Below, in pieces: positions 4,235 to 36,085 of a stretch of DNA of 64,000 bases. The translations under genes and the position numbers were made by a program. The notes under the pieces were generated by a model, which saw only the letters and a list, made by a program, of their open reading frames with translations, was not told where the DNA came from and searched no databases. Where the stretch lies: contig JAKSLM010000011.1 in NCBI GenBank assembly GCA_024401225.1, forward strand, positions 1 to 64,000, read 5' to 3'. The number at the start of each line of letters is the position of its first letter. Position 1 is the stretch's first letter. The stretch comes from Bacteroidaceae bacterium (GTDB lineage Bacteria > Bacteroidota > Bacteroidia > Bacteroidales > Bacteroidaceae).

Positions 4235-4477
4235 GAATGTCGGTTTTTGTGTACTTTTGGGGTTTAAAATAAAAAAAGGGTAACCGCCGTTACCCAACCT
4301 TTTGTTAACCTTAAATCTAATACTATGAAAAACACACATGCAAAGGTAACTACTTTTTCGCTCTCTGACCAAATAATTTGAAGGAAAAGTTTCAAAAAAT
4401 CTTTATTTTATGATTTATGTCAAGAAAATTATGTGCTTTCGATGCTTGTTTTTGCATAAAGTGCAATTTGCAACTTG

Positions 4478-11094: not shown

Positions 11095-11868
11095 TTACTT
11101 GATGTTCTGTCTGATCTTTGTAAGGAATGCCTGCATACGTTCTTCGTCCTTGGTGTCGATGATATCGATGATCTCCTTCATCTCGGCACGAATCTTAGCC
11201 ACCTGATCCTTGGTGTAAGGGTTGAAGAGAATCTCGCGCAGCAGGGTGTCGTCCTCCGAGAGTACGCCCTGGGCAATCTTCATGTGGCGCTTGAATGTGG
11301 TACCAGGAGCATCCTGATGCTTCATCACGGCTGCGAAGGCAAAGGTAGAGATGAATGGGATGCTGAGCGAATAAGCCACCGTGCGGTCGTGCTCCTCGAA
11401 TGTATATTCGCACACGTTGAGTTCGAGGCGTGAGTAGAGTTCCTTGAAGAAGCAACGTCCCATGAAGTCGCCCTCGCTGATGATGATGGCATTCTCAGAG
11501 GCCAGTTTGCCGAGGTTGGCAAATGTAGGTCCGAACATAGGGTGTGTACTAACGTAGCGCATGCCTGTGTTCTCGTAAAACTCCTTGAATCCAGTCTTCA
11601 CCGAACTGATATCGGACAGTATACATGTGTCGGGAAGGTATGGGATGACCTGCTCAAACACGGAGAGCGTGTACTTCAGACTCACGGCATTGATGACGAG
11701 CTCAGGCTTGAACTCGCGTATCTCCTCCATCGTTGTGAAGCGCTGCGTGTTGTACATGAATCGCAGGCGCTTAGGATCAATCTCGTAAACGGCCACCTCG
11801 TGGTCAAAACTAAGCAGGTCGGTAAAGAACGAGCCCATCTTGCCTGCTCCAAGTATCAGTATCTTCAT
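11095..11868 (-). CDS. tyrA: Prephenate dehydrogenase
   Basis: A 257-residue NAD(P)-dependent enzyme converting prephenate to 4-hydroxyphenylpyruvate on the tyrosine branch. The Rossmann motif GAGKMG is at 7-12, followed by the acidic residue of YEID. ISSVKTGF and STHPMFGP match prephenate dehydrogenases. No chorismate mutase or ACT domain is attached; the mutase is on the upstream gene. It is the last gene of the minus-strand aromatic operon, separated from DAHPS-CM by 170 bp of heptamer repeats. Confidence 0.9.
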   Translation of the reverse strand: MKILILGAGKMGSFFTDLLSFDHEVAVYEIDPKRLRFMYNTQRFTTMEEIREFKPELVINAVSLKYTLSVFEQVIPYLPDTCILSDISSVKTGFKEFYENTGMRYVSTHPMFGPTFANLGKLASENAIIISEGDFMGRCFFKELYSRLELNVCEYTFEEHDRTVAYSLSIPFISTFAFAAVMKHQDAPGTTFKRHMKIAQGVLSEDDTLLREILFNPYTKDQVAKIRAEMKEIIDIIDTKDEERMQAFLTKIRQNIK

Positions 11869-11883: not shown

Positions 11884-12038
11884 AGGTTATAGGTTAGAGG
11901 TTAGAGGTTAGAGGTTAGAGGTTAGAGGTTATAGGTTAGAGTGTTTTTCTCTCCACTCTCACCTCTCCACTCTCACCTCTCACCTCTCCACTTTAACCTA
12001 TAACCTTTAACCTATAACCTTTAACCTTTAACCTTTTC
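11884..12038. repeat. 7-bp repeats in inverted arrangement between DAHPS-CM and tyrA
   Basis: GGTTAGA-type heptamers run from 11884 to 11942; after CTCTCACCTCTCC-type units the complementary TAACCTT/TAACCTA units run from 11992 to 12038. In the minus-strand transcript the two arms could pair into a long hairpin between the two cistrons. Confidence 0.75.
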
Positions 12039-13103
12039 TTACTTATTGATAACTTCCATCTGCTGATTGACACTCTCCTCGTGTATGTGCTCGAAGATGC
12101 CCTTGATGCAGTCGGGATTGATGCCGAGGATGGAACCCTGTGCTCCGCGCTTGTCGAGAATCTCGCTATAGCGTGTGGTCTGCACGATGGTCATGCCATG
12201 CTCCCTCTTGTACTGACCGATCTCGCGGCTCACGCGCATACGCTTGGCAAGCATGTCGATGAGGTCGTTGTCGATCTCGTCAATCTGCTTACGAAGCTGC
12301 GACAGAGGTTCGGTAGTCTGTCCCTGTTCGCGGATTACGAGGAGCGAGAGGATGTAGTCGAGAATGTCAGGTGTGACCTGCTGACTTGCATCGCTCCATG
12401 CCTTGTCAGGATTGCAATGGCTCTCAACTATCAGTCCATCCATACCGAGGTCCATAGCCTGCTGGCAGAGAGGTGCGATGAGGTCGCGCTTACCGCCTAT
12501 GTGGCTTGGATCGTTGACGATAGGAAGCTGTGGACAGCGACGATGAAGCTCGATAGCAATCTGCCACATAGGGAGGTTGCGGTATATCTTCTTGTCGTAG
12601 CTTGAGAATCCGCGGTGGATGGCACCAAGGCGCTTGATGCCGGCACGGTTGATGCGCTCGAGAGCTCCGATCCAAAGTTCGAGGTCAGGATTGACAGGGT
12701 TCTTCACGAGGACTGGTATGTCAACACCCTGCAAAGCATCGGCCAATGACTGCATGGCAAACGGATTGGCGCTGGTGCGTGCACCAACCCAGAGGATGTC
12801 GATGCCATATTTGAGAGCCAGTTCGACATGCTCAGGTGTAGCCACCTCGGTAGCTGTGAGCATGCCCGTCTCCTGCTTCACCTGCTGCATCCATGGAAGG
12901 GCATTCTCGCCGTTGCCTTCGAAGCCTCCTGGCTTGGTACGAGGCTTCCAGATGCCGGCACGGAACATGTGGCATCCCTTCTCTGCCAACTGGCGTGCAG
13001 TAGTCATCACCTGTTCTTCGGTCTCGGCCGAGCAAGGTCCTGCTATTACGAACGGACGTTTATTATCGCTTGGTAAGTTTAATGGTTGTAGTTCAAGTTC
13101 CAT
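12039..13103 (-). CDS. DAHP synthase / chorismate mutase fusion
   Basis: A 354-residue bifunctional enzyme. Residues 1-255 are a KDO8P-synthase-like (type I-beta) 3-deoxy-7-phosphoheptulonate synthase: IAGPCSAE at about 20-27, KPRTKPGGFEG, VGART, and DPSHIGGKRDL. Residues 265-345 are an AroQ-type chorismate mutase (LRKQIDEIDNDLIDMLAKR, then REIGQYKREHG). It therefore makes the first shikimate-pathway intermediate and converts chorismate to prephenate, feeding both pheA and tyrA in this operon. In fusions of this kind the mutase often mediates feedback control by prephenate; that is family knowledge. The start lies 26 nt after the aminotransferase stop. Confidence 0.93.
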   Translation of the reverse strand: MELELQPLNLPSDNKRPFVIAGPCSAETEEQVMTTARQLAEKGCHMFRAGIWKPRTKPGGFEGNGENALPWMQQVKQETGMLTATEVATPEHVELALKYGIDILWVGARTSANPFAMQSLADALQGVDIPVLVKNPVNPDLELWIGALERINRAGIKRLGAIHRGFSSYDKKIYRNLPMWQIAIELHRRCPQLPIVNDPSHIGGKRDLIAPLCQQAMDLGMDGLIVESHCNPDKAWSDASQQVTPDILDYILSLLVIREQGQTTEPLSQLRKQIDEIDNDLIDMLAKRMRVSREIGQYKREHGMTIVQTTRYSEILDKRGAQGSILGINPDCIKGIFEHIHEESVNQQMEVINK

Positions 13104-13129: not shown

Positions 13130-14296
13130 TTATTCAAAAACCTTCTTCACTCTCTCGAGGGCTTCCTGCATCTTCTCGTCCTTGGCGCAGAGCGAGATGC
13201 GGAGGTAGCGCTTACCGTTGCTTCCGAAGATGAAGCCAGGAGTGATGAATACGCGAGCCTCGTGCAGCACCTTTTCCGTGAGGTCCTCGACATCGGCATA
13301 AGTGTCAGGTATGCGTCCCCAGAGGAACATGCCCTGCTGAGTAGGGTCGAACGTGCATCCGAGAGTGGTCATGATCTGCTCGGCAATGTTGCGTCGGCTG
13401 GCGTAGGTCTCGATGTTGGCATGTGTGTGCCAAGCCTCTGTGTTGTCGTAAGCCTGGGCAGCAGCAAGCTGTAGCGGACGGAAGGTACCAGAGTCGATGT
13501 TTGACTTAATCTTCAGTATCCACTGTACGAACGTGCTGTTGGTGGCGAGCATACCCACGCGCCATCCAGGCATGTTGTGGCTCTTGGACATGGAGTTGAA
13601 CTCAATGCAGCAATCCTTTGCACCAGGGATCTGGAGAATGGACAGATGCTCGTCCTTGTTGAGGATGAATGAGTATGGATTGTCGTTCACCACTACGATG
13701 TCGTGAGCCTTGGCAAATGCCACGATCTTCTCATAGAGCTCGCGAGTGGCACGTCCGCCTGTAGGCATGTTAGGATAGTTGGTCCACATCAGTTTCACGC
13801 CTGTGAGGTCCATGCTCTCCAGCTGATCGAAGTCAGGCTGCCAACCGTTGCTCTCCATGAGGTCGTAGTTGACAATCTGCTGGCCGAGGATCTTTGACAG
13901 GGATGTGTAGGTAGGGTAGCCAGGGTTTGGCACCAGCACCTTGTCGCCAGGGTTGCACAGGGCAAGAGTGACATGAAGGATGCCCTCCTTGCTGCCTATC
14001 AGAGGCTGGATCTCGGTGGCAGGATCGAGTTCTACTCCGTACCATCGGTTGTAGAAGCGAGCCATGGCCTGTCGCAGTTCAGGTATGCCGACAGTAGGCT
14101 GGTAGCCGTGAGCATCAGCCTTCTTGGCGTTTTCGCAGAGCACATCGATGGTCTCTGTCGATGGTGGCATGTCGGGCGAACCGATGGCAAGGCTTATGAT
14201 GTCCTGTCCTTCGGCATTGAGCTTAGCCACTTCTTTCAGTTTTCTTGAGAAATAATATTCGCTTACGAGCGATAAACGGTCTGCTGGAGTTATCAT
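13130..14296 (-). CDS. PLP-dependent class I/II aminotransferase (aromatic/aspartate type)
   Basis: A 388-residue fold-type I aminotransferase. YQPTVGIPELRQAMARFY, TNYPNMPTG, the VNDNPYSF aspartate region, the PLP lysine in EFNSMSKSHNMPGWR (about 237) and the C-terminal YLRISLC arginine are all visible. Its position between pheA and DAHPS-CM suggests it transaminates phenylpyruvate and hydroxyphenylpyruvate, or prephenate. That role is inferred; general aspartate or LL-diaminopimelate aminotransferase activity is an alternative. It overlaps pheA by 4 nt. Confidence 0.88.
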   Translation of the reverse strand: MITPADRLSLVSEYYFSRKLKEVAKLNAEGQDIISLAIGSPDMPPSTETIDVLCENAKKADAHGYQPTVGIPELRQAMARFYNRWYGVELDPATEIQPLIGSKEGILHVTLALCNPGDKVLVPNPGYPTYTSLSKILGQQIVNYDLMESNGWQPDFDQLESMDLTGVKLMWTNYPNMPTGGRATRELYEKIVAFAKAHDIVVVNDNPYSFILNKDEHLSILQIPGAKDCCIEFNSMSKSHNMPGWRVGMLATNSTFVQWILKIKSNIDSGTFRPLQLAAAQAYDNTEAWHTHANIETYASRRNIAEQIMTTLGCTFDPTQQGMFLWGRIPDTYADVEDLTEKVLHEARVFITPGFIFGSNGKRYLRISLCAKDEKMQEALERVKKVFE

Positions 14297-15135
14297 ATTG
14301 TGGATTTTCCTTCTTTATATTCGCCTAATACTTTTAGTTGCTTTGTAAGTGGTCGTACGGCATCGATAGCCTGATGGTAGCGTGTGTAGTCTTCGTACAT
14401 CACGTCGATGTAGAACATGTATTCCCATTCGCGTCCGATGATAGGGAGCGACTGGATCTTGGTGAGGTTGATCTTGTAGAACGAGAAGATCGACAACACC
14501 TGCGACAGGCTACCCTCGTTGTGTGGCAGGCTGAACACGATGCTTGCCTTGTTCGACTGGTTAGGCATGGACAACTCTTCTGCCTGCCAAGGGTCGCAGA
14601 GCACGAGGAAGCGTGTGAAGTTGTGCTTGTTGGTCTCGATGCTCTCCTCCAGCACCTTCATGTTGTAGAGTGGTGCAGCAAACTTCGAGCAGATGGCTGC
14701 GTGTCCTCGCATCTGTCCCTCGCTGATCATCTTTGCCGATCCGGCGGTGTCGTCGGCCTCGACAACCTTCATGCTTGGGTGCTTCTTCAGGAAGTCGCGG
14801 CATTGCATGAGGGCCACAGGGTGCGAATTGACCTCTGTGATGTCGTTCCAGTCCTCATCAGGCAGGCACATTATGGAGTGGCTGATGCGCAGCTTGTGCT
14901 CGCCCACTATCTGCATTCCGCTCTCGCGCAGCAGTTCGTAGTTGTGGAGCAGCGAACCTGCTATGGTGTTCTCGATGGCCACGAGAGCAATGACATTGTT
15001 GTCCTTCTTCATCTCTGCAAACACATCCTCAAATGTGTCGCAGCATATCAGTTCGATCTCCTCGCCCTCGAAGTACCGATGGCTTGCCACGTCGTGGAAA
15101 CTGCCTACCTGTCCTTGTATCGCAATTCTTTTCAT
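14293..15135 (-). CDS. pheA: Prephenate dehydratase with ACT domain
   Basis: A 280-residue monofunctional enzyme converting prephenate to phenylpyruvate. The catalytic half (1-180) opens with IAIQGQVGSFHDVASHRYF and includes VAIENTIAGSL. The ACT regulatory half spans about 190-275 (FSLPHNEGSLSQVLSIF). The ESRP motif of most ACT-type dehydratases reads KIQSLPI here, so phenylalanine binding may differ. First gene of the operon; its start codon directly follows the T run of an attenuator terminator, with a Phe/Tyr leader peptide further upstream. Confidence 0.93.
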   Translation of the reverse strand: MKRIAIQGQVGSFHDVASHRYFEGEEIELICCDTFEDVFAEMKKDNNVIALVAIENTIAGSLLHNYELLRESGMQIVGEHKLRISHSIMCLPDEDWNDITEVNSHPVALMQCRDFLKKHPSMKVVEADDTAGSAKMISEGQMRGHAAICSKFAAPLYNMKVLEESIETNKHNFTRFLVLCDPWQAEELSMPNQSNKASIVFSLPHNEGSLSQVLSIFSFYKINLTKIQSLPIIGREWEYMFYIDVMYEDYTRYHQAIDAVRPLTKQLKVLGEYKEGKSTI

Positions 15136-15229
15136 AAAAAAACAATCCCACTCACATTGGAGCGGGATGATATACTTGATTTTTTAGTTTGTTTCGTTGT
15201 TACGAAGTCTTGCACATGAAATCCCGCTC
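15136..15229 (-). promoter_or_regulatory. Transcription attenuator of the pheA operon
   Basis: On the minus strand, ATCCCGCTC (15168-15160) can pair with GAGTGGGAT (15153-15145) around a 6-nt loop, followed by TGTTTTTTT (15144-15136): an intrinsic terminator ending at the pheA AUG. The same ATCCCGCTC can instead pair perfectly, 9 bp, with GAGCGGGAT (15229-15221), which begins one base after the leader-peptide stop codon. A ribosome finishing the leader would cover GAGCGGGAT and let the terminator form; one stalled on the Phe/Tyr codons would leave it free and antiterminate. Pairings are seen in the sequence; the mechanism is inferred from classical attenuators. Confidence 0.85.
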
Positions 15230-15286
15230 TTACCGTTTGCTAAAGTAAAAGTAAAAATAGAAATATGTGCTAAAATACGACTTCAT
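15230..15286 (-). CDS. Phe/Tyr-rich leader peptide of the pheA operon
   Basis: An 18-codon frame reading MKSYFSTYFYFYFYFSKR, with six Phe and five Tyr codons, eight of them an unbroken Tyr/Phe alternation. It starts at an ATG after an AT-rich stretch and ends at TAA (15232-15230), right at the edge of the antiterminator. Composition and position match leader peptides that sense charged tRNA; mixed Phe and Tyr codons fit an operon that serves both amino acids. Too short for ordinary gene finding. Confidence 0.85.
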   Translation of the reverse strand: MKSYFSTYFYFYFYFSKR

Positions 15287-15336
15287 TATTATATAAATAT
15301 GTGTACTTGTTATAACCTTTGATTGGTTTTACGATG

Positions 15337-15370
15337 CAAAATTACGTATTCTTATCCACTCCACCAACAA
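15337..15370 (-). promoter_or_regulatory. Candidate promoter of the aromatic operon
   Basis: On the minus strand a -7 box TAATTTTG (15344-15337) is preceded by TTG at 15367-15365 with 20 nt spacing. A start near 15330 would give a leader of about 195 nt containing the leader peptide and the attenuator. The remaining stretch to 15489 shows nothing else. Confidence 0.55.
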
Positions 15371-15489: not shown

Positions 15490-16497
15490 CTACTTCTCGC
15501 ACTTCAGGTTGAAATCGACTGAATTGAAGTCCTGGTTGTAGAATTGTCCCTTGTACGTTATTATACCATCGGTGTGGTCGCATGTACCCTGGAAGTAACC
15601 AAGGTACTTGTTGTTGCTTTTCTGGTAAGCCTTGATCAGCAATGTGCCATCGCTTGGATGGTAGCGGTAGACTTTCAACAGGCGTGTGCCGATGCTGATG
15701 GTGTAGTCGCCCTCACCATTCGAGATGTTGAGTGTGGCATTCTTGTCGCCTCCTATGCTGCCGGTCATGTGGTAGGTGTCGCGTTCTGGATGAAGCGAAG
15801 CGGGGCCAGTCAAAGACTTTTCCGACTCGCCGTAGTAGAGTATCTGACGCTTTGCCTCATTGCCTTCTTCGTCCGTGCGCAGAGTCCAGTTGCCATGAGC
15901 ATCGTGCTTGCGTATGGTGTATTTGGTTTCCACCTTCTCGTAGTATTCGTCATCACCTTCCTCATCATTGTATCCAACGCTTCGGTACTCGGCAATCATC
16001 TTCACAAGATCACCATTCTTGTCGTATGAATAGTGGTAGGTGAACTCGGTGCCTTCCACCTGACCTTCTTCTCGCGCCAGATGGTCGTTCTCCCAAATAA
16101 TCTCGCTAAACGATTCCAAACCATAGGTTTCGCTGATGCGTCCCTTTGCATCGCGCTTGTAGCATGTTGTCTCTTCAAACTGACTGGTCTCTTCATCGTA
16201 TATGCGCTCCGACTCTTTGAAAGGATCGTAATCGTCCATCTTGATGAGTTTGCCATCCTCATCAAACTCATATGTGCTGCCGAATGCGAACAGCTTGTGT
16301 ACTGGTCCGTGAACGTTGAAATATGCAAGGTCGGGCGAAGTGAAATCGTCAGGCTTGATGTTGTCAGCCTTTACTTCATCGCCAGTTGTGGCACTTACGG
16401 CATTGGTGCTGTCTGCACTCTCATTGTTGTTTGAAGTCTTGTTGCCGCAAGCAGTTATGGTTGCTGCAACGATGAAAGGAAGGAAATACTTTCTCAT
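15490..16497 (-). CDS. Putative lipoprotein with YD-like repeats, downstream of the cobalamin genes
   Basis: A 335-residue protein with a lipoprotein signal (TITAC, Cys17), then a low-complexity Asn/Ser/Ala/Glu linker to about residue 50. The middle contains several short units of the form FDEDGKLIK, RDAKGRISE, YDKNGDLVK and HDAHGNWTL, resembling YD/RHS-like strands. The C-terminal 90 residues contain TYHMTGSIGGDKNATLNIS and GYFQGTCDHTDG, suggesting a small beta domain. Function unknown. It begins 3 nt after the cbiB stop, so it is almost certainly co-transcribed with cbiP-cobD-cbiB. Confidence 0.7.
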   Translation of the reverse strand: MRKYFLPFIVAATITACGNKTSNNNESADSTNAVSATTGDEVKADNIKPDDFTSPDLAYFNVHGPVHKLFAFGSTYEFDEDGKLIKMDDYDPFKESERIYDEETSQFEETTCYKRDAKGRISETYGLESFSEIIWENDHLAREEGQVEGTEFTYHYSYDKNGDLVKMIAEYRSVGYNDEEGDDEYYEKVETKYTIRKHDAHGNWTLRTDEEGNEAKRQILYYGESEKSLTGPASLHPERDTYHMTGSIGGDKNATLNISNGEGDYTISIGTRLLKVYRYHPSDGTLLIKAYQKSNNKYLGYFQGTCDHTDGIITYKGQFYNQDFNSVDFNLKCEK

Positions 16498-35754: not shown

Positions 35755-35990
35755 TAGACTCCAAATCCTGGGAGTGAAATATCTCTAGTACGGACGATTG
35801 GCAGGTCTTCTGGCTTACCATGAACGGACGGTCTTCCCGAGGGCGAGGGGAGCGTGATGTGGCTTCCCAATCTCAGTGACACGGTGTGTCCGCTCTTGAA
35901 TAATGGCTTACAGCTGCAGGAACAGCTCAGGTGTTGCACCTGATTCCCTTGCACATGGTGCTGGATGCACCTTGTTACCAAATCCGCTGC
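35755..35990 (-). ncRNA. Cobalamin riboswitch upstream of the TonB-cbiK-btuF operon
   Basis: Minus strand. The aptamer spans about 35990-35790: GGTGCATCCAGCACC, AAGGGAATCAGGTGCAACAC, GCTGTTCCTGCAGCTGT, GAGATTGGGAAGCC and the B12 box TAAGCCAGAAGACCTGCC (35817-35800). It is larger than the riboswitch at 20167, with an extra paired arm around CCGTGTCACTG and CCCTCGCCCTCGGG. A hairpin ACTCCCAGGATTTGGAGT near 35774-35757 presents CAGGA, complementary to TCCTG of the aptamer loop (35921-35917). It is 36 nt before the receptor start at 35721. It fills the gene-free stretch 35722-36085. Confidence 0.9.
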
Positions 35991-36085
35991 AAATGTATTG
36001 CTTATTTACGAAATGACCAAATAAAATACGAGAAAAATGTGCTTGCTGCATACAAAAGGTGCAGGAAGGATAGGAAATGGGGGAT

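Follow-up and report, generated by a model that had tools for sequence, protein, structure and literature searches.

A predicted leader-peptide attenuator with Phe and Tyr codons ahead of pheA, and its conservation across Bacteroidia

Locus and conservation

The window, by which we mean the whole stretch of 64,000 nucleotides that was analysed, carries on its minus strand a cluster of genes for aromatic amino acid synthesis. Ahead of pheA in this cluster lie a short reading frame rich in Phe and Tyr codons (F/Y below) and a set of strands that can pair with one another. The features are as follows.

11095..11868, minus strand: tyrA-like prephenate dehydrogenase (PF02153, 5.7e-09), at most possibly co-transcribed
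12039..13103, minus strand: DAHP synthase - chorismate mutase fusion, DAHPS-CM (PF00793 and PF01817)
13130..14296, minus strand: class I/II aminotransferase (PF00155)
14293..15135, minus strand: pheA, prephenate dehydratase (PF00800, 6.1e-55)
15136..15153, minus strand: predicted intrinsic terminator, made of strand 4, GAGTGGGAT (15153-15145), and the U-tract T7 (15142-15136)
15160..15168, minus strand: strand 3, ATCCCGCTC, common to antiterminator and terminator
15212..15217, minus strand: strand 2b, ATGTGC (TATGTGTT in many genus relatives), the partner of strand 1
15221..15229, minus strand: strand 2, the antiterminator strand, GAGCGGGAT, which covaries with strand 3
15230..15286, minus strand: leader ORF, MKSYFSTYFYFYFYFSKR plus TAA, 18 codons, with ATG at 15286 and TAA at 15232-15230
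15265..15270, minus strand: strand 1, GCACAT, leader codons 6-8, which pairs with 15217-15212 in folds and shows covariation
15337..15344, minus strand: -7 promoter box, TAATTTTG (TAnnTTTG), a motif kept upstream of the leader in relatives

The operon was originally predicted to hold pheA, tyrA and DAHPS-CM together. The genes for PheA, the aminotransferase and DAHPS-CM are packed tightly, with an overlap of 4 nt between pheA and the aminotransferase gene and a gap of 26 nt from there to DAHPS-CM. The membership of tyrA is doubtful, this gene lying 170 bp away from DAHPS-CM and past a long hairpin of heptamer repeats that may set it apart from the operon. The repeats (11884-12036) form two mutually complementary blocks, and the hairpin has an energy of -68.9 kcal/mol (z -8.4). 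Upstream of the leader and on the same strand is gene 15490-16497, for whose 335-aa product no Pfam match was obtained; by eye, the protein has a lipoprotein-like start.

The F/Y run of the leader comprises codons 8-15, i.e. eight consecutive F/Y codons, and strand 2 starts at the base directly 3′ of the leader stop codon. Strand 4 is followed by TG, then by T7, and then by the pheA ATG at 15135. The leader, strand 2 and the T run at the pheA AUG had been read in this way before, and direct reading of the minus strand confirms all three.

At 234 pheA loci, as much as 420 nt of the preceding sequence was scanned, a leader being called when at least 6 F/Y fall within 9 codons. Conservation of the leader frame in relatives had been set beforehand as a test, and the frame was found at 27/27 loci of the genus (window included) and, class-wide, at 182 of the 204 assessable Bacteroidia loci, which, like those of the second set below, are not a random sample (for each search, the 30 best-scoring loci were taken together with others picked to cover genera). 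The remaining tiers give 76/87 for the family, 55/62 assessable loci for the order and 24/28 for the class. The genomes sampled amount to 27 of the 32 with a pheA match in the genus, 87 of 123 in the family, 64 of 65 in the order and 28 of 32 in the class. Two of the 64 order loci were dropped from the count, L176 (contig end) and L030 (where a contig end cuts pheA), and the leader of L210 enters only the class figure of 24/28 and with it the total of 182, the other statistics being calculated without it.

The 27 leaders of the genus represent 21 distinct peptides. On average, the nine-codon core contains 4.4 F and 3.5 Y, and both residues occur in 177 of 181 leaders; F/Y codons are kept while single positions exchange F for Y among relatives. 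Controls for the leader call alone gave 2/233 for dinucleotide shuffles, 9/233 for antisense strands and 0/592 for random 420-nt pieces of the window. When leader, terminator and antiterminator helix are demanded together, these numbers become 0 for the shuffles, 2/233 for the antisense strands and 0 for the window pieces.

A second set consists of 80 loci from titled contigs, 21 of which have an upstream 60-mer identical to one in the first set, and here the leader is present at 74 of the 78 assessable loci. The carriers include Phocaeicola vulgatus ATCC 8482, P. massiliensis, Bacteroides fragilis S82, B. xylanisolvens XB1A and Prevotella lacticifex. Outside the class, no F/Y leader was found over at least 1000 bases upstream of each of 28 loci that belong to other classes of this phylum, these being the best-scoring 28 of 95 genomes with a pheA match. 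At six of them the PheA frame stays open for at least 60 codons further upstream.

As to the promoter, there is a TTGG at 15364-15367 that we assume may be the -33 element. TAnnTTTG is the -7 box of the Bacteroidetes type, as described in PMC9723704, and it is present in the 140 nt preceding the leader at 161 of 180 loci, compared with a shuffle rate of 0.08-0.15 (genus 27/27, family 75/76, order 43/54, class 16/23). Its distance to the leader ATG has a median of 26 nt in the genus and is 50 nt in the window. A transcription start downstream of 15286, which had been named as a finding that would speak against the prediction, is disfavoured because the -7 box lies upstream of the leader ATG; the start is probably upstream of the leader.

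We now turn to the pairing of the strands. The original prediction described a switch of three strands, of which the competition between the 2:3 and 3:4 pairings stands, but the number of strands has to be corrected to four, strand 1 pairing with strand 2. It is important to point out that strand 2 was found via its pairing with strand 3, so that pairing percentages are circular and only permutations and spacing count. For helix 2:3, the true partners at 167 distinct loci score 21.69 and permuted ones 15.73 (sd 0.23), with none of 2000 permutations reaching the true value; this and the following permutation counts are not clean probabilities, related sequences being non-independent. The compensatory changes that had been anticipated among the stem strands are thus seen for the antiterminator helix. 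Within the genus alone, 6/2000 permutations reach the true value, a weaker signal because the strands hardly vary there.

For helix 1:2b, the corresponding scores over 161 distinct loci are 14.37 and 12.08 (sd 0.19), with 0/2000 permutations for the whole set, 6/2000 for the genus, and 0 of 2000 for each of family, order and class. Strand 1 is located just before the F/Y run, its letters being GCACAT in the window and AACACATA in several relatives, and both helix 1:2b and the terminator appear in the RNAalifold consensus built from 26 distinct leaders of the genus. At order and class level the helix is short and varied. Judging from these comparisons, strand 1 is firm for the genus and the family and only likely for the other tiers.

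In silico, the full leader of the window folds such that strand 1 is paired with strand 2 and the terminator is formed. The piece from strand 2 onward, which mimics a ribosome on the 5′ part, adopts instead the antiterminator fold, in which the terminator is absent. The energies are -14.0 kcal/mol for the terminator piece and -21.4 kcal/mol for the antiterminator piece, each of which beats 200/200 shuffles.

The spacing was evaluated for the 168 loci that have a leader, a terminator and a scored antiterminator helix, out of 171 with a terminator found by script. From the last F/Y(W) codon to the start of strand 2 the median is 11 nt (IQR 10-12), the distance from the last F/Y codon lies between 6 and 15 nt at 161 of the 168 loci, and in the window the F/Y run is 12 nt from strand 2. 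With the last base of the stop codon as reference, on the other hand, strand 2 is offset by anything between -60 and +7. Its first base falls within the leader ORF at 1/27 loci in the genus, where the stop codon sits just before strand 2, at 56/66 in the family, 34/53 in the order and 22/22 in the class. The downstream reach of a ribosome is about 12 nt at most (PMC4833913). Strand 2 should therefore stay accessible as long as the ribosome sits on an F/Y codon and become covered once it has moved past. The distance between the control codons and the antiterminator strand is hence that of a ribosome footprint, and a stalling sensor would require just such a spacing, tied to these codons instead of the stop.

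Proposed mechanism and alternatives

The element combines an ORF with end-product codons, an intrinsic terminator, and a competing antiterminator that covaries. With a probability of roughly 0.9, we interpret it as a ribosome-mediated transcription attenuator that would sense charged tRNA-Phe and tRNA-Tyr. This is the mechanism put forward originally, and it is supported by the comparison through the conservation of the leader, the position of the -7 box and the covariation of the antiterminator.

The course of events that we infer, from transcription start and leader translation to stalling, termination and the amino-acid response, is the following. RNA polymerase would start near 15331, and a ribosome would translate the leader. 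Under shortage of Phe or Tyr, the ribosome would stall in the F/Y run and cover strand 1, its leading edge reaching strand 2 or stopping slightly before it, such that 2:3 pairs, the terminator is blocked and the operon is read. When both amino acids are plentiful, the ribosome would reach the stop and cover strand 2, upon which 3:4 would pair and transcription would end immediately ahead of the pheA AUG. Without any translation of the leader, strand 1 would hold strand 2 and the terminator would form, making the default state off.

By script, a terminator is found between leader and pheA for 171 of 181 leaders. The finder misses bulged stems, which concerns 10 loci in the first set and 20 of 74 leaders in the titled-contig set. 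On inspection of the 10 by eye, 9 have a T run and a hairpin with a bulge, the exception being L064, which is without a T run. In the genus, the U-tract is interrupted (TTATAC) at 7/27 loci (L002, L003, L005, L008, L028, L045, L052), where intrinsic termination may be weaker although leader and strands have been retained. This interruption, and the distance of 9 nt between the hairpin end and the pheA ATG in the window, would suit translational control, in which the start region of pheA would be masked by the 3:4 hairpin until the ribosome on the leader opens it, with little termination taking place. However, the distance from the hairpin end to the ATG is not conserved, varying between 9 and 41 nt across the genus, and the other 20 of the 27 loci retain at least 5 T among the 8 bases after the stem. 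We therefore consider translational control improbable as a replacement for termination. In the species of the window, a translation block could still operate alongside it as an additional level of control.

A metabolite riboswitch, a T-box or a protein-bound 5′ UTR, to which the F/Y frame would be incidental, was also considered, as the element is structured and conserved and elements of the riboswitch and T-box type likewise use antiterminators. The leader families in Rfam comprise Phe, Trp, His, Leu and Thr leaders, and a search of Rfam 15 with the leader region gave nothing at gathering score, the hits at E ≤ 10 being three unrelated families with E of 1.6-2.1. This result, together with the retention of F/Y codons despite the exchanges between F and Y and their nearly fixed distance to strand 2, makes such an element very improbable. 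A search for phage relatives of the leader yielded no similar phage DNA.

Returning to the attenuator, 22 Bacteroidia pheA loci are without a leader, and in seven of these genomes a leader is found before another aromatic gene instead. According to Pfam, this is an aminotransferase gene in G079, G258, G296 and G267 and tyrA in G234. In G391 and G426 it is a DAHP synthase gene, identified from its reading frame and a profile match, and here the letters of strands 2 and 3 are much altered (CGAATCGG with CCCGATTCG) and still complementary. G258 has in addition a weaker F-rich frame before pheA. In G301 a leader is present farther upstream of pheA, and L173 has, by eye, an F/Y frame below threshold with its strands.

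For the other 13 of the 22 no leader was found, with the DAHPS-CM neighbourhoods covered except in G114 and G312. In two genera of the family, g31 and g35, no leader was found in the stretch examined upstream of pheA or in the DAHPS-CM neighbourhoods covered (G114 left out; L361, i.e. G142, ends at a contig end). These genera account for nine of the 13 loci (L032-L034, L037, L038, L043, L049, L050, L057), and their PheA frames are longer. Three genomes without a pheA match, G045, G062 and G081, show no leader near DAHPS-CM. The F/Y frames of L364, L366 and L369 were left out of the tally, the terminator being absent or the helix weak. A tandem arrangement was seen in G258 (L371), in which two F/Y-rich leader frames, each with a hairpin and a T run, precede the aminotransferase gene.

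That the hairpin is merely the terminator of the upstream gene 15490-16497, which does lie on the same strand, next to a chance F/Y frame is hardly credible, given the -7 box between this gene and the leader in the window and the recurrence of the arrangement throughout the class, also with other aromatic genes where pheA is without a leader.

A search for the exact core-plus-strand-2 pattern matched 51 of 151 family genomes, once in each, with no match in the backward control; 50 of the matches are just upstream of the pheA position and one, in G079, is before the aminotransferase gene. A wider regulon was set aside, although the pattern is narrow and further leaders may exist elsewhere. In the genome of the window, the loci examined around hisG, homoserine dehydrogenase, ilvD and two chorismate-binding genes gave no convincing leader for other amino acids. 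The frames listed there include a few with two or three W and one that is rich in I/L/V.

A broader reading, which we regard as tentative and put at somewhat less than even odds, is that of an ancestral attenuator of four strands, present throughout the Bacteroidia and reading Phe and Tyr jointly, that would have stayed with whichever aromatic gene leads the cluster. Its strand 2 would be placed by how far the ribosome footprint reaches beyond the F/Y run, the position of the stop playing no part, and some of the lineages of the window's genus with a decayed U-tract may be on their way to becoming translational switches.

Relation to known systems

The trp and pheA (pheL) attenuators of E. coli are leader-peptide attenuators, and they share with the present element a short leader ORF with end-product codons, the mutually exclusive 1:2, 2:3 and 3:4 pairings, and a terminator before the first gene. 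The element differs from them in that Phe and Tyr are mixed about equally, that no Rfam leader family matches it, and that strand 2 tracks the F/Y run, lying inside the leader ORF at 112 of the 141 non-genus loci that have all parts. The comparative attenuation survey of Lopatovskaya et al. from 2010 (Mol Biol 44:128), cited in PMC4833913, may already predict this element.

In another account from 2010 (PMC2965389), leader-peptide systems are described as shown only in Proteobacteria and Actinobacteria, and a case from Firmicutes is added; Bacteroidetes are not mentioned in its main text. The Corynebacterium ilvB uORF (PMC11109978) has in common with our case the end-product codons and a terminator with a competing antiterminator, and differs in phylum and amino acids. 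In Bacteroides thetaiotaomicron, leader-like sORFs have been reported in long 5′ UTRs (PMC7366714), with pheA absent from the main text of that paper.

A precedent is found in Flavobacterium psychrophilum, for which strong indications of leader-peptide attenuation ahead of amino-acid operons have been described, as well as a structured 5′ element of pheA that is conserved in other Flavobacteriaceae and has no Rfam hit (PMC9723704). Phylum and gene are common to both elements, while the F/Y leader, the strand model and a spread beyond Flavobacteriaceae are not given in the available text of that source. Going by this description, the two are likely the same element. To the original statement that no characterised Phe/Tyr case is known in Bacteroidetes, a precedent in the phylum can be added with this Flavobacteriaceae element.

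The kind of element is consequently not new, such attenuators being already predicted in the phylum. In the open-licence literature covered, most subscription papers being outside its scope, the F/Y leader, its strands and its spread are not described, and little is found on the regulation of aromatic amino-acid synthesis in relatives of Bacteroides, Phocaeicola and Prevotella. The details that stand out are the footprint-like spacing, which is independent of the stop, and the leader staying with aromatic genes when pheA is without one. The mRNAs of the Bacteroidetes group are described as being without Shine-Dalgarno sequences (PMC9723704), and the element suggests that transcription and translation would be closely timed in such a group. 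With its codons and strands exactly defined, it represents a concrete, testable switch in common gut species.

The absence of a match at gathering score also makes the leader a candidate for a new Rfam family. Elsewhere on the minus strand of the window, there are a cobalamin riboswitch at 35784-35997 (77.5 bits) and a match to the Bacteroidetes FopS sRNA family at 4268-4335 (81.4 bits).
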